Origin: Smithellaceae bacterium
GTDB lineage: Bacteria; Desulfobacterota; Syntrophia; Syntrophales; Smithellaceae
Direction of reading: 5' to 3'
NCBI GenBank assembly: GCA_030690945.1
Contig: JAUYFM010000001.1
Coordinates: forward strand, 1 to 37,954
Length of the DNA stretch: 37,954 bases
The position numbers and the translations under genes were made by a program. The notes beneath the pieces are model-generated. The model did no database searches, was not told where the DNA came from, and worked only from the letters and a program-made list of their open reading frames with translations. Every line of letters begins with the position of its first letter. Position 1 is the first letter of the stretch. Shown in pieces: positions 33,467 to 37,954 of the stretch.

Positions 33467-33585
33467 GAACAAACAAAACCAAACAGGGTTCGTCCATCAA
33501 GATTTCTCCTTTTATATTCGATAAAATGTATAGGCGATCACAAGTGAACTGGAAATTTCACATGGAAAGACGGGAAATTTTCTTC

Positions 33586-33614
33586 TTGTACTAAAATTAT
33601 CATTCAAGTATGAT
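33586..33614 (+). promoter_or_regulatory. Candidate promoter for the small lytic transglycosylase
   Basis: TTGTAC (33586-33591) and TATGAT (33609-33614) are separated by 17 bases. The -10 ends only 6 bases before the ATG at 33621, so the transcript would be leaderless or nearly so. Confidence 0.5.
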
Positions 33615-33620
33615 AAGGCT

Positions 33621-34244
33621 ATGATCTACAAGACAAACCTAAATTGTTTTCAATTAATTGGAACGCTGCTGACAATTTTCTTGGTTTCAACTTTATTGCT
33701 GCTTACGTCTGCTGTTCCCTCTTATGCGGATATTTATAAATATGAGGATGCAGACGGCGTGATCCATCTGACCAACGTACCTTCCAATCCTAAAGCCAAA
33801 TACGTCATGATCCTGAAGGAAAAAAGAGTTCATTTTTCGAAAATCATCGATATCCGTCAATATGACAAAATTATCAGCCAAGCTGCCGGTAAATTTAATC
33901 TTGATGTCGCCTTGATTAAAGCCGTCATCAAAGCAGAATCAAATTTTAATCATCAGGCTGTTTCACGTGCCGGCGCAAAAGGGCTTATGCAGTTGATGCC
34001 TCAAACCGCTTCCACCCTGAAGGTTGATGATGTTTTTCATCCCGGTAATAATATCGAAGGAGGCGCTCGCTATCTGCGTTATCTTCTGAATCTCTATAGA
34101 GGCAACCTGACGCTCGCACTGGCTGCCTACAATGCGGGCGAAGGGGCTGTGGCAAAATACAATTACGGTGTGCCGCCTTATCGTGAAACACAAAATTACA
34201 TCAGGCGCGTCCTTGCTTTTTATGAGTCCTACGGCAAGTCATAA
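33621..34244 (+). CDS. Secreted lytic transglycosylase (SLT domain) with DUF4124-like N-terminus
   Basis: A 207-residue exported murein hydrolase. A signal peptide (about 1-36, cleavage near SYA) is followed by a short DUF4124-like strand region (IYKYEDADGVIHLTNVP, about 38-54). The SLT domain covers about 84-205. Its probable catalytic Glu is in IKAESNFN near 112, followed by GAKGLMQLMP and the AYNAGEGAV motif. The architecture is common in Deltaproteobacteria. It is monocistronic and converges on the comEA-like gene, with a GC-rich hairpin between. Only AAGG at 33615-33618 lies upstream of the ATG, too close for a normal ribosome site. Confidence 0.92.
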   Translation: MIYKTNLNCFQLIGTLLTIFLVSTLLLLTSAVPSYADIYKYEDADGVIHLTNVPSNPKAKYVMILKEKRVHFSKIIDIRQYDKIISQAAGKFNLDVALIKAVIKAESNFNHQAVSRAGAKGLMQLMPQTASTLKVDDVFHPGNNIEGGARYLRYLLNLYRGNLTLALAAYNAGEGAVAKYNYGVPPYRETQNYIRRVLAFYESYGKS

Positions 34245-34276
34245 ACCTCGTGCTACATGCCTCCAACCACCCCCTA

Positions 34277-34310
34277 CCCCCGCCTAATCTGAAGGTCACG
34301 CGAGCGGGGG
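34277..34310. other. GC-rich hairpin between convergent genes
   Basis: CCCCCGC (34277-34283) is complementary to GCGGGGG (34304-34310) with a 20-base loop, in the 79-base gap between the converging transglycosylase and comEA-like genes. Without a T-tract, intrinsic termination is doubtful on either strand. Confidence 0.4.
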
Positions 34311-34323
34311 ACACAAGCTGCGC

Positions 34324-34878
34324 TTACAGCTGATCGACATAGAGATATTGTCTTAATTGAGACAGTTTTTTTTCCTTGATTCCTTTTATATCCATCAACT
34401 GGTCTAATTTATCAAATCGTCCAATTTTCTCCCGTTCTGCCACAATATTTGCAGCCAACACGTCTCCAACTCCGGGAATCAACTTTAATTCGTCCCGGTC
34501 TGCCAGATTAATATCCAAAAGCAGTCCCAACGCTAATCTTTTCGCGGCATCCATCTTCTCAACAACAATGCCTCGATGATCTTCCTCTGGGACAAGACGT
34601 ATTTTTATTCCATTTTGCAGTTGCATGTCTTCCGTGATTTTCCTGTTGAACCCCAGTTGTGAAAAAATTTGATTGACTGAAGTTCCCGGCTTAACAAAAT
34701 AGACACCGGACTCTCCGTTATCCAAAACGACCTCAATCATGAGAGCATGGGAACCGGGCATGGACAGAATCGGACTTTTTGAATTCATCTGAGAGGATGC
34801 AAAAAAACCGATAAAGGGAATAAACGCTAAGAATATGGATACCGCGATTATTCCCTTTATCTGACGTTCAAACATCAT
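34324..34878 (-). CDS. ComEA-like helix-hairpin-helix protein
   Basis: The 184-residue protein has one N-terminal membrane helix (about 8-28). A small SLBB-like beta region (about 47-80, VVLDNGESGVYFVKPGTSVNQ) follows. A C-terminal double helix-hairpin-helix DNA-binding domain ends the protein (about 123-182: INLADRDELKLIPGVGDVLA and LMDIKGIKEKKL). ComEA relatives bind incoming DNA at the outer face of the inner membrane during natural transformation, but solo proteins of this type are widespread, so competence is not implied. The start at 34878 is 6 bases after lysC and lacks a Shine-Dalgarno, so it is probably translated by coupling. Confidence 0.82.
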   Translation of the reverse strand: MMFERQIKGIIAVSIFLAFIPFIGFFASSQMNSKSPILSMPGSHALMIEVVLDNGESGVYFVKPGTSVNQIFSQLGFNRKITEDMQLQNGIKIRLVPEEDHRGIVVEKMDAAKRLALGLLLDINLADRDELKLIPGVGDVLAANIVAEREKIGRFDKLDQLMDIKGIKEKKLSQLRQYLYVDQL

Positions 34879-34884
34879 TATTTT

Positions 34885-36105
34885 TTACTTTTTCTTTTCC
34901 AAATGAAACGCGTCATGAAGCACCATAACGGCCAATTCCGTATACTTTCTCTGGATTACACAGGATATTTTAATTTCCGACGTGCTGATCATCATGATAT
35001 TGATGCCTTCATCCGCCATGGTTTGGAACATTTTTGCCGCGACACCGGAATGACTGACCATCCCTACACCGATGATCGATACTTTCGCGACTTCATCGTC
35101 CACTTCCACTCTTTTTGCGCCAATTTCTTTGGCTGTCGCTTCAACAATCTTCTGTGCTTCTTTCATCTCCTTTTTTGACACGGTGAAAGTCAAATCCGTA
35201 TAACCTTGCGCACTGGCGTTTTGAATGATCATATCGACACTGATATTTCGTTCCGACAAAGGTGTAAATAAATTCGCCGCGATTCCCGGTTTATCCGGTA
35301 TATGAACAACCGTAATTTTCGCCTGATCACGATCATACGTGATTCCTGACAGTACTTCTCTCTCCATCTCTTTATCCTCCTTCGTTACAAGTGTTCCGCC
35401 TTCATCGGAAAAGGTTGATTTGACATAAACAGGCACATCATATTTTTTAGCCATTTCCACGGAACGGGGTTGCAAAACCTTCGCGCCGGTCATGGCCATT
35501 TCCAGCATCTCGTCGTAGGAAATTCTATCCAGCCTTCTGGCATTAGCGCAGATGTTGGGGTCGGTTGTATAAACGCCGTCCACATCCGTATATATGTCGC
35601 ATCGGTCGGCATTAAGCGCCGCAGCCAATGCCACCGCGCTGGTGTCTGAGCCGCCGCGACCCAGGGTGGTAATGTTATTATCATCGTCCACGCCTTGAAA
35701 TCCGGCAACGACAACAATGGTGCCTTTCTTTAGCTCTTTCTGGATGATATCCGTATCGATCATGGATATCCGCGCTTTCTGATAAGCCTTATCTGTCAAT
35801 ATCCTGACCTGAAAACCCAGAAAGGAGCGAGAAGGATATCCCATTGAATTCAGCGCAATAGACAGCAGGGTAATCGTCACCTGTTCCCCCGTTGAAATCA
35901 GCGAGTCATACTCTCTTTTATCGGGAGAATCAGCAGCGCTATTCGCCAGATCAATCAGCCTGTTTGTTTCTCCCGCCATCGCGGAGAGCACTACAATAAC
36001 GTCATGGCCTGCATTCTTCTCACGGATCGCCTTGGCTGCTACATTTTTTATCTTTTCAACATTCGCTACCGATGTTCCACCAAATTTCTGGACAACCAAT
36101 CCCAT
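34885..36105 (-). CDS. lysC: Aspartate kinase
   Basis: The monofunctional aspartokinase catalyses the first step of the Lys/Met/Thr/diaminopimelate pathway. The 406 residues carry the N-terminal KFGGTSV signature (7-13), the kinase domain to about 245 ([16 protein letters not shown] near 149) and two C-terminal ACT domains (about 265-405) for amino acid feedback. An ATG at 36105 has GGAGG nine bases upstream. It is 3 bases after tsaE. No lysine riboswitch precedes it, so control is probably allosteric. Confidence 0.97.
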
Positions 36106-36108
36106 AGT

Positions 36109-36594
36109 CTAACCCTCCCTCTTGATATCTTTCAATAAGTCCCGGACTCTTTTTTGAGGTCCGCTGATACTTATTATCCTTTTGTTTTCATCTACATACA
36201 TAAATTTAATCGATACGGCATCAGGCGGTAAGGCATTGGCGATTTTCTCCGCCCATTCAATGGCGACCACGCCTTTCCCCGACACATATTCATCATAACC
36301 CAAATCATCCAGTTCGCCTATTCGATTCAATCGATAAACATCAAAATGGTAAAACCGGTATCGCCCCGGATACTCATTAACCAGGGTAAAGGTCGGGCTG
36401 GTAATTGTATAATTTTCGCCAACACCGAGACCGCGCGCCAATCCGCCCGTAAAGCAGGTCTTGCCTGCGCCCAGTTCACCGGATAACGCGAAGATATCCC
36501 CTTCCCCAGCCTTTTCTCCAACAGCGAAACCTATTGCGAATGTTTGCTCGGCGCTTTCCGATTCTATTTCAACGAGAGCCGTTTTTTCTTTCAT
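36109..36594 (-). CDS. tsaE: tRNA t6A threonylcarbamoyl biosynthesis ATPase
   Basis: TsaE is the P-loop ATPase of the TsaBDE complex that makes N6-threonylcarbamoyladenosine at A37 of ANN-decoding tRNAs, and is usually essential. From ATG 36594 it has 161 residues, the usual size. Walker A G39-ELGAGKT-46, SPTFTLVNEY and the FYHFDVYR segment are family hallmarks, and VVAIEWAEKI follows. The frame also stays open up to a GTG at 36625-36627, but that codon belongs to the terminal repeat of the adjacent insertion sequence, so I reject it as the ancestral start. No clear ribosome site precedes 36594. The IS ends only 30 bases upstream, so the native promoter has probably been displaced. Confidence 0.93.
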   Translation of the reverse strand: MKEKTALVEIESESAEQTFAIGFAVGEKAGEGDIFALSGELGAGKTCFTGGLARGLGVGENYTITSPTFTLVNEYPGRYRFYHFDVYRLNRIGELDDLGYDEYVSGKGVVAIEWAEKIANALPPDAVSIKFMYVDENKRIISISGPQKRVRDLLKDIKREG

Positions 36595-36624
36595 TGGACT
36601 GTCTGTAAATTTATCATTTAATAA

Positions 36625-36642
36625 CACTACTGTCCGGAATAA
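36625..36642. repeat. IS terminal inverted repeat (tsaE side)
   Basis: CACTACTGTCCGGAATAA. It contains the transposase stop (TAG on minus, 36627-36629) and a fortuitous GTG in frame with tsaE. Confidence 0.93.
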
Positions 36643-37808
36643 TCTGTGAATAAGTTCAACTGGTTACTGTTTTTATCCATGTCACTTATGTAATCATAAA
36701 ATGTAAGTAGCTGAAACATGGATGCTCTTTCAAATAGCGAGATACTCAAAACCTGTAAAATTGTGTAGAGACTTTCCTGGAGATTCAGTCGTTTTTTGAT
36801 GATCGCCACGATCAGATAGACGGAAATGGCGATCCAGATCTGAATTTTCACGGCATTCTCCGAGGTACCGAAAAAGCTCTTGATGCGCAGGTGCTGCTTG
36901 ATCCATTTGAAGAAGAGTTCCACCTGCCATCGTTGTTTGTAAAGCTGGGCGATGGTGATGGCGGGCAGAAGAAAGTTGTTGGTCAGAAACACCAAGGTTT
37001 TGTTGGTCTCGGCGTCGTAATATCTCACCCGGCGGAGTTTGTCGGGATAATCCCCGGCTGACTTCACAACGGTCAGTAGGATGGATTGGTCGCACACAAC
37101 CCCTGTGGATTTGTCCACTGGATGGGAATAAAGCCTGCGACTCTTGAGATTGGACTTGGATCGGATCACGAAGAAAGCGGAGGCTTGGGTAACAGCATAG
37201 AGTCTGGAGAAATCCGTGTAGCCGCGATCCATGATATAGAAAGCGCCTGCTTCCAGAGGAATGATATCCAGAACGTTGACCTCGTGGAGTTTTCCGTCGG
37301 AGATGTGGATGAAGCTCGGGATATTGCCCCGCAGATCCAGCAGGGTATGAAGTCGGACGGCCCCCTTTGCTGTCCGGAAGTGTGCCCAGGGAAAAATGGA
37401 CAGGCACAGATCGATCGTCGTTGCATCCAGGGCGTAAACCGTGTTTTGAAGTTCCACGGCCAATGGTTCCTTCTGGTAGAGTTTCCTGGCGATGCCGATC
37501 AGATGATGGGCAAAATCGGCGTAGATGCGCCAGTCCCGCATCTCGTTCGCTTCCGCCAGAGTACTGCGGGAAACCTTGCTGCGGATGCCCATGTGATAGA
37601 GCTTGTTGTTTTGTGCCCGAAGGCAGGCTTCGATGTCCCGCAGGCTCTCTCGATACGTCAGTTGTGCAAAAGCCATAATGCGGAACTGATCCAGACAGGT
37701 GAAGTTCTTGACGCTGAAGTTGCCTTGGTACTTCTCCACGCAGCGCTGAAATGTTTTCAACGGCATGAAGTCCATGACTTGGGTAAATACAAGCGGGCCT
37801 GTATACAT
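36627..37808 (-). CDS. IS4-family transposase (DDE)
   Basis: A 393-residue transposase with an RNase H-like DDE core. Catalytic Asp128 is in YALDATTID, Asp194 in YIMDRGYTDF and Glu297 in the IS4 signature Y290-x2-R293-x3-E297-x6-K304. The N-terminal region (about 1-75, FSVKNFTCLDQFRIMAFAQLTYRESLRDIE) resembles the DUF4372 domain common in IS4 elements. I choose ATG 37808 because AAGGAG lies 5 bases upstream; the GTG at 37814 falls inside that ribosome site. The frame is uninterrupted, so the enzyme is probably active. Its stop codon lies within the terminal inverted repeat, two bases short of the element's end. Confidence 0.95.
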   Translation of the reverse strand: MYTGPLVFTQVMDFMPLKTFQRCVEKYQGNFSVKNFTCLDQFRIMAFAQLTYRESLRDIEACLRAQNNKLYHMGIRSKVSRSTLAEANEMRDWRIYADFAHHLIGIARKLYQKEPLAVELQNTVYALDATTIDLCLSIFPWAHFRTAKGAVRLHTLLDLRGNIPSFIHISDGKLHEVNVLDIIPLEAGAFYIMDRGYTDFSRLYAVTQASAFFVIRSKSNLKSRRLYSHPVDKSTGVVCDQSILLTVVKSAGDYPDKLRRVRYYDAETNKTLVFLTNNFLLPAITIAQLYKQRWQVELFFKWIKQHLRIKSFFGTSENAVKIQIWIAISVYLIVAIIKKRLNLQESLYTILQVLSISLFERASMFQLLTFYDYISDMDKNSNQLNLFTDYSGQ

Positions 37809-37815
37809 AAGCACT

Positions 37816-37842
37816 CCTTCCCTGAAATATTCTTCGGGAAGG
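37816..37842 (-). promoter_or_regulatory. Hairpin overlapping the transposase ribosome binding site
   Basis: CCTTCCC (minus strand, 37836-37842) is complementary to GGGAAGG (37816-37822), which includes most of the Shine-Dalgarno of the transposase. Loop of 13 bases. Folding would hide the ribosome site. Confidence 0.6.
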
Positions 37843-37936
37843 TTTACAGATTCCGCTATGCGTTTTCAAGTCGAAGACAAACATAAATTGCATCTTTCGT
37901 GAAATATGTTAACCTTTTACAAATCTTAATTGTCGG

Positions 37937-37954
37937 TTATTCCGGACAGTAGTG
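37937..37954. repeat. IS terminal inverted repeat (window edge)
   Basis: Exact reverse complement of 36625-36642. The window stops at its outer base. Confidence 0.92.

Follow-up and report, generated by a model that had tools for sequence, protein, structure and literature searches.

An IS4-family insertion sequence (IS) has been inserted between acpS and tsaE in the Smithellaceae genome analysed here (G000), where it separates tsaE-lysC from folP-acpS and lies in the direction of the operon. With the 9-bp target duplication counted, the IS deleted nothing, and all 30 native bases before the tsaE ATG were kept. The window, meaning the whole stretch of 37,954 nucleotides that was analysed, is contig C4 of this 69-contig, 3.15-Mb genome. 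Expression of tsaE-lysC is probably kept up by transcripts running through the IS together with a weak promoter retained in the native bases. Transcripts entering from farther upstream must now cross the element.

The insertion sequence in the window

The features of the locus are collected in Table 1. The tsaE gene is presumed to be essential, and single matches were found in the genome for tsaE and for acpS. A first-pass annotation of this DNA had placed the IS end at 36625 and the tsaE start at an ATG at 36594 on the minus strand, and both positions are exact: the 18-bp terminal inverted repeats of the element are perfect, and the product matches Pfam PF02367 (E 8.4e-38) and TIGR00150 (112.4 bits, cut-off 60.1). 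It had also described transposase and tsaE as reading in the same direction, as they do, both on the minus strand. No RNA families were found in 34000-37954.

Table 1. Coordinates of the insertion sequence, the genes next to it and the candidate signals at the junction.
Feature	Position in window	Strand	Remark
IS4-family insertion sequence, complete, 1330 bp	36625..37954	- (transposase strand)	reaches contig end
Transposase, 393 aa, ATG start, stop TAG within terminal repeat	36627..37808	-	
Terminal inverted repeat adjoining tsaE	36625..36642	.	18/18 match with other end
Terminal inverted repeat at contig end	37937..37954	.	18/18 match with other end
9-bp target site duplication ATTTAATAA	36616..36624	.	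second copy beside acpS on contig C58
TAGTG, stop TAG (36629-36627) and GTG (36627-36625) sharing one base	36625..36629	-	
TGATAAATT, extended -10-like, from native gap, 13 nt to ATG	36608..36616	-	putative function
CGGACA, possible IS-supplied -35, 17 nt 5' of TAAATT	36631..36636	-	33% of shuffles reach score
tsaE, 161 aa	36109..36594	-	sole copy found in genome
lysC (aspartate kinase), downstream of tsaE	34885..36105	-	NF005155 633.9 bits, cut-off 346
Small gene, ComEA-like helix-hairpin-helix domain	34324..34878	-	HHH_3; comEA models below cut-offs

The transposase carries the domains DUF4372 and DDE_Tnp_1 (profile match on a 395-aa version of the ORF) and matches the IS4 family transposase model NF033592 with 273.8 bits (cut-off 115). 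It is encoded in a single 393-aa frame with the YREK signature, Y-(2)-R-(3)-E-(6)-K, at residue 290, and its start is preceded by a Shine-Dalgarno (SD) site of -8.3 kcal/mol. An alternative frame at 37893-36730 (387 aa) belongs to no Pfam or NCBIfam family and was discarded in favor of 37808-36627. A related copy in G014, 93% identical, ends in the same TAGTG.

Copies of the element and reconstruction of the insertion site

Termini of the IS are found on 16 other contig ends of the genome (8 left and 8 right), which sets the copy number, counted by left ends, at nine at least. The left ends on C27 and C30 are 94% and 98.8% identical, respectively, and the remaining 14 ends show a full match over 115-140 bases. 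The body of the element is carried by C4 alone and may be a consensus of copies. It is because the IS is multicopy that the window, and with it the contig, stops exactly at the far IS end.

All 9 left flanks were compared with all 8 right flanks for a shared duplication. An exact 9-base duplication forms eight one-to-one pairs, accounting for 8 of the 9 left ends and all of the right ends, while any other left-right pairing shares at most 3 bases. The left end on the tsaE side of C4 pairs with C58, its sole match among the 8 right ends. That the locus is an assembly artefact, in which a repeated IS was wrongly joined to tsaE, might be suspected from the exact coincidence of the window end with the IS end and from a body, perhaps a consensus, present in C4 alone. 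This is scarcely credible, given that the duplication at the tsaE-IS junction pairs with exactly one other end, which carries acpS, and that 8 of the 9 left ends pair likewise. For the left end on C45:1-140 (L008), the assembly contains no right end with the corresponding 9-base duplication, and a partial relative of the IS, 68% identical, lies inside contig C2 at 115663-116207 (L018).

All 8 paired sites fall outside ORFs of more than 75 codons. At 6 of them the closest long ORF lying upstream of the transposase, considering ORFs only, is co-directional with it. The terminal GTG opens into a recognised gene at the tsaE copy only (172 codons), the frames at the other left ends running for 1-61 codons. 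The pairing also shows that target duplications can rejoin draft-genome contigs that were broken at repeats, with 8 links recovered here.

Original gene order around tsaE

The end of C58 carries folP (DHPS, TIGR01496 318.7 bits) and acpS (TIGR00516 107.3 bits, cut-off 59.8), and the acpS stop codon immediately precedes the duplicated 9 bases. A comparison with the same locus lacking the IS had been suggested by the first-pass annotation, and it gives a uniform answer: in all 34 genus and family relatives in which both genes were located, tsaE immediately follows acpS, with one contig and one strand shared by the two, so that among 35 genomes the adjacency is broken in G000 only. Order-level genomes were left out, G035-G058 for acpS and G059-G074 for tsaE. 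The two genes are 21-48 bases apart between aligned ends, the exceptions being G008 (92) and G004 (133). Among the first 44 of 80 named loci, from Smithella and Syntrophaceae MAGs, folP, acpS and lysC occur beside tsaE in 41, counting presence and not order. The pairing with C58 and the position of acpS in the relatives therefore mean that the IS splits folP-acpS from tsaE-lysC.

In G015, the bases that follow acpS are those of the G000 gap with one difference in 33. A relative with the same 30 bases and needing nothing more had been named beforehand as an observation that would speak against dependence on the IS. The bases are indeed there, except for one position, but acpS is still attached, and G015 therefore does not show that the 30 bases suffice. 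In four Smithella-type sequences (L031, L032, L034, and L100), acpS lacks its usual stop and extends nearly as far as the tsaE start, with the TGNTA motif described below missing.

The 30 bases retained before tsaE

The native gap between the IS end and the tsaE ATG spans 36595-36624. The SD energy of tsaE against the anti-SD is +0.4 kcal/mol (-11.9 for the neighbouring lysC), which bears out the earlier statement that tsaE has no ribosome site. This energy is weaker than -3.5 kcal/mol in 36 of 40 distinct upstream sequences of the genus and family, G000 included, and judged from these sequences the IS did not bring about the lack of the site.

A TGNTA motif ends 10-30 nt before the tsaE start in 24 of the 40 sequences, 18 of which have it at 15-18 nt; the shuffles, which ignore relatedness, averaged 5.6 and reached at most 14 of 40. 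The motif is absent in the other 16, which include the nearest relatives G008 and G004 (TGATGAAT) and the four sequences with acpS running to tsaE. In the genus alignment, which holds 15 of the 19 distinct genus rows (the same four being omitted), TGAT is invariant, preceded by A in 14 rows and followed by A in 12. Across the family, by eye, the base after TG varies and TA is kept; this alignment shows 11 of the 21 further rows, chosen by eye for the TG element, while the TGNTA count uses all 40. This RTGNTARAT-like element could be an extended -10 promoter element, and through it a promoter could lie within 36595-36624, the very interval in which a promoter had been named as evidence against dependence on the IS.

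Scored row by row as an extended -10, no single site is significant: the lowest shuffle fraction is 0.024, in L032, which lacks the conserved element, and the G000 site stands at 0.172; the mean over the 40 rows is reached by 3 of 500 shuffle sets, kinship being ignored. A survey of leaderless starts covered 344 ORFs in 400 kb plus the window (about 438 kb), of which 310 were classed, 254 with an SD and 56 without. No enrichment of -10-like sequences was seen before these 56 genes, and short-leader promoters are therefore not a general habit of G000. An SLT transglycosylase gene without an SD, at 33621, carries TATGAT at six bases 5' of its ATG (window 33560-33626), a leaderless-like arrangement.

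The conserved RTG may also be read as the start codon of a leader and not as part of a -10. Translation of tsaE would then be coupled, once to acpS and now to the transposase, with termination and reinitiation at TAGTG adding 11 N-terminal residues. The in-frame GTG at 36627-36625, already reported with its 11-residue extension of TsaE, does open a 172-codon ORF; it overlaps the transposase stop, which had been overlooked, as had the multicopy nature of the IS and acpS as the native upstream gene. A GGA lies 5 nt before this GTG (-3.2 kcal/mol). Coupling would suit the lack of an SD in 36 of the 40 sequences and the acpS stop about 30 nt upstream of tsaE in the relatives. G008 and G004 read TTG at the tsaE start position, with an in-frame ATGATG upstream, and a translational role of the element is therefore also possible. 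Nonetheless, the leader frame varies, being by eye in frame in G008, G004, L026, L027, and L043 and otherwise out, and the family pattern resembles, again by eye, TGNTA rather than codons. Coupled translation is for these reasons considered unlikely.

Transcription across the junction

A search of both strands of 36400-37954 gave no terminators, against 1.5 expected in shuffles, and the earlier statement that none lies between IS and tsaE holds. A simple-consensus promoter scan gave one promoter-like site, on the plus strand and pointing away from tsaE. The weighted scan gave no score above shuffles at the IS-tsaE junction. The candidate hybrid site there, CGGACA-17-TAAATT with TG before the -10, scores 7.70, a value that 33% of shuffles reach; the native site, whose candidate -35 is TGGAAA or CTGGAA in the end of acpS, scores 7.24. 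RNA folding was applied to two gaps filled by repeats and to the junction of IS and tsaE, and the z values of -0.67, -0.92, and 1.59 gave no signal of structure.

It had been proposed that expression of tsaE-lysC now depends on the IS, through read-through of the transposase mRNA or an outward promoter lying wholly in the IS end. Of this proposal, the separation from the upstream sequence stands, while the lack of a ribosome site proves to be native and the 30 bases are still in place. IS4-family transposases are usually weakly expressed, which also weighs against reliance on the IS itself, and the best site wholly within the IS end, TTGAAA-16-GCTACT, scores at most 4.19, less than the 7.00 that best sites average in shuffles. 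The shared direction with no terminator, the 33 nt from transposase stop to tsaE ATG and the TAGTG overlap of stop and start in frame with tsaE would fit such reliance. Other IS families offer well-documented examples of outward promoters in IS ends, and also of fusion promoters with an IS-borne -35 (PMC9330008). Taken together, sole reliance on the IS appears rather unlikely. Transcripts could also come from folP-acpS by running on across the co-directional IS, a source that the proposal did not list.

The preferred explanation, insertion followed by run-through with help from a retained promoter, can be set out as follows. A multicopy IS4-family element entered the 30-bp acpS-tsaE gap of a conserved folP-acpS-tsaE-lysC row by what would be a cut-and-paste-type event, duplicating 9 bp. 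Being in the operon direction, with no detectable terminator and with a transposase frame that extends to its last bases, it acts like an extra cistron. Expression of tsaE-lysC would then be maintained by transcripts running through the co-directional IS, and a short promoter within the 30 native bases may help, its -35 now being CGGACA from the IS instead of acpS sequence.

Other insertions in the acpS-tsaE gap

The acpS-tsaE gap is filled by different repeats in several genomes. That of G008 and G004 holds a dispersed palindromic repeat, probably from one shared event, of which there are 17 copies in G008, 7 in G004, 17 in G000, 15 in G015, and none in G007 (reversed-pattern control 0). The repeat is GCGAGCAAGCTCGCGGAGAATTAACGCTCG-like, with a resemblance to the REP type, and an example in G000 is found at C15:15109-15138. 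The gaps of L067 and L070 hold 107 and 268 bases, respectively, with TGNTA kept beside tsaE in both, and their sequence is related to a pattern that is present 8 and 33 times in the respective genomes (up to 3 of 18 positions mismatched; control 0 and 1). The L071 sequence begins 91 bases before tsaE, too near for its gap to be compared. The repeats in the same gap of G004, G008, L067, and L070 therefore indicate that separation of acpS from tsaE is tolerated in several lineages. A bolder proposal would make the gap a recurrent landing site because tsaE has a compact promoter in the last 30 bases, and would add an IS-swapped -35 at 17-bp spacing and a TAGTG-coupled cistron yielding both native and 11-residue-longer TsaE; this combination is thought very unlikely.

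Comparison with known systems

The insertion is ordinary, common mobile-element biology in an instructive place. Literature searches for DUF4372 with the IS4 family found no paper, and those for Smithella or tsaE with insertion sequence gave unrelated matches only. The locus amounts to an experiment of nature in which an operon was split before a gene presumed to be essential, with split and unsplit forms that can be compared among close relatives.

According to Table 1 of PMC2266710, target duplications in the IS4 family are about 10 bp and not 4-6, and the IS4Sa subgroup comprises elements of 1150-1750 bp with ends CA------T and duplications of 8-10 bp. The window IS shares with this subgroup the one-frame DDE transposase with YREK, its length of 1330 bp, its ends CACTACTGT (CA start, T at position 9) and its 9-bp duplication, found in 8 of 8 paired insertions and within the family range of that table. 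It is an IS4-family element and IS4Sa-like, the subgroup being assigned from these table features only and not from a transposase tree, and among them nothing was found that sets it apart.

Fusion (hybrid) promoters made by an IS, which alter the expression of the next gene, are reviewed in PMC9330008. The present locus is like those described in that review in having an IS end directly 5' of a gene and, at a distance of 17 bp, hexamers that resemble a -35 and a -10. The promoters there were measured, whereas the match of CGGACA-TAAATT to the pattern does not exceed chance, and, unlike in those cases, the target tsaE is a housekeeping gene, presumably expressed before the insertion. An IS in the same orientation within a transcription unit, the ->IS-> shape, is covered in PMC9208149, and acpS -> IS -> tsaE has that shape, with one direction throughout. 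Compared with the cases in that paper, the distance to the downstream gene is here very short (30 bp), and that gene is one presumed to be essential.
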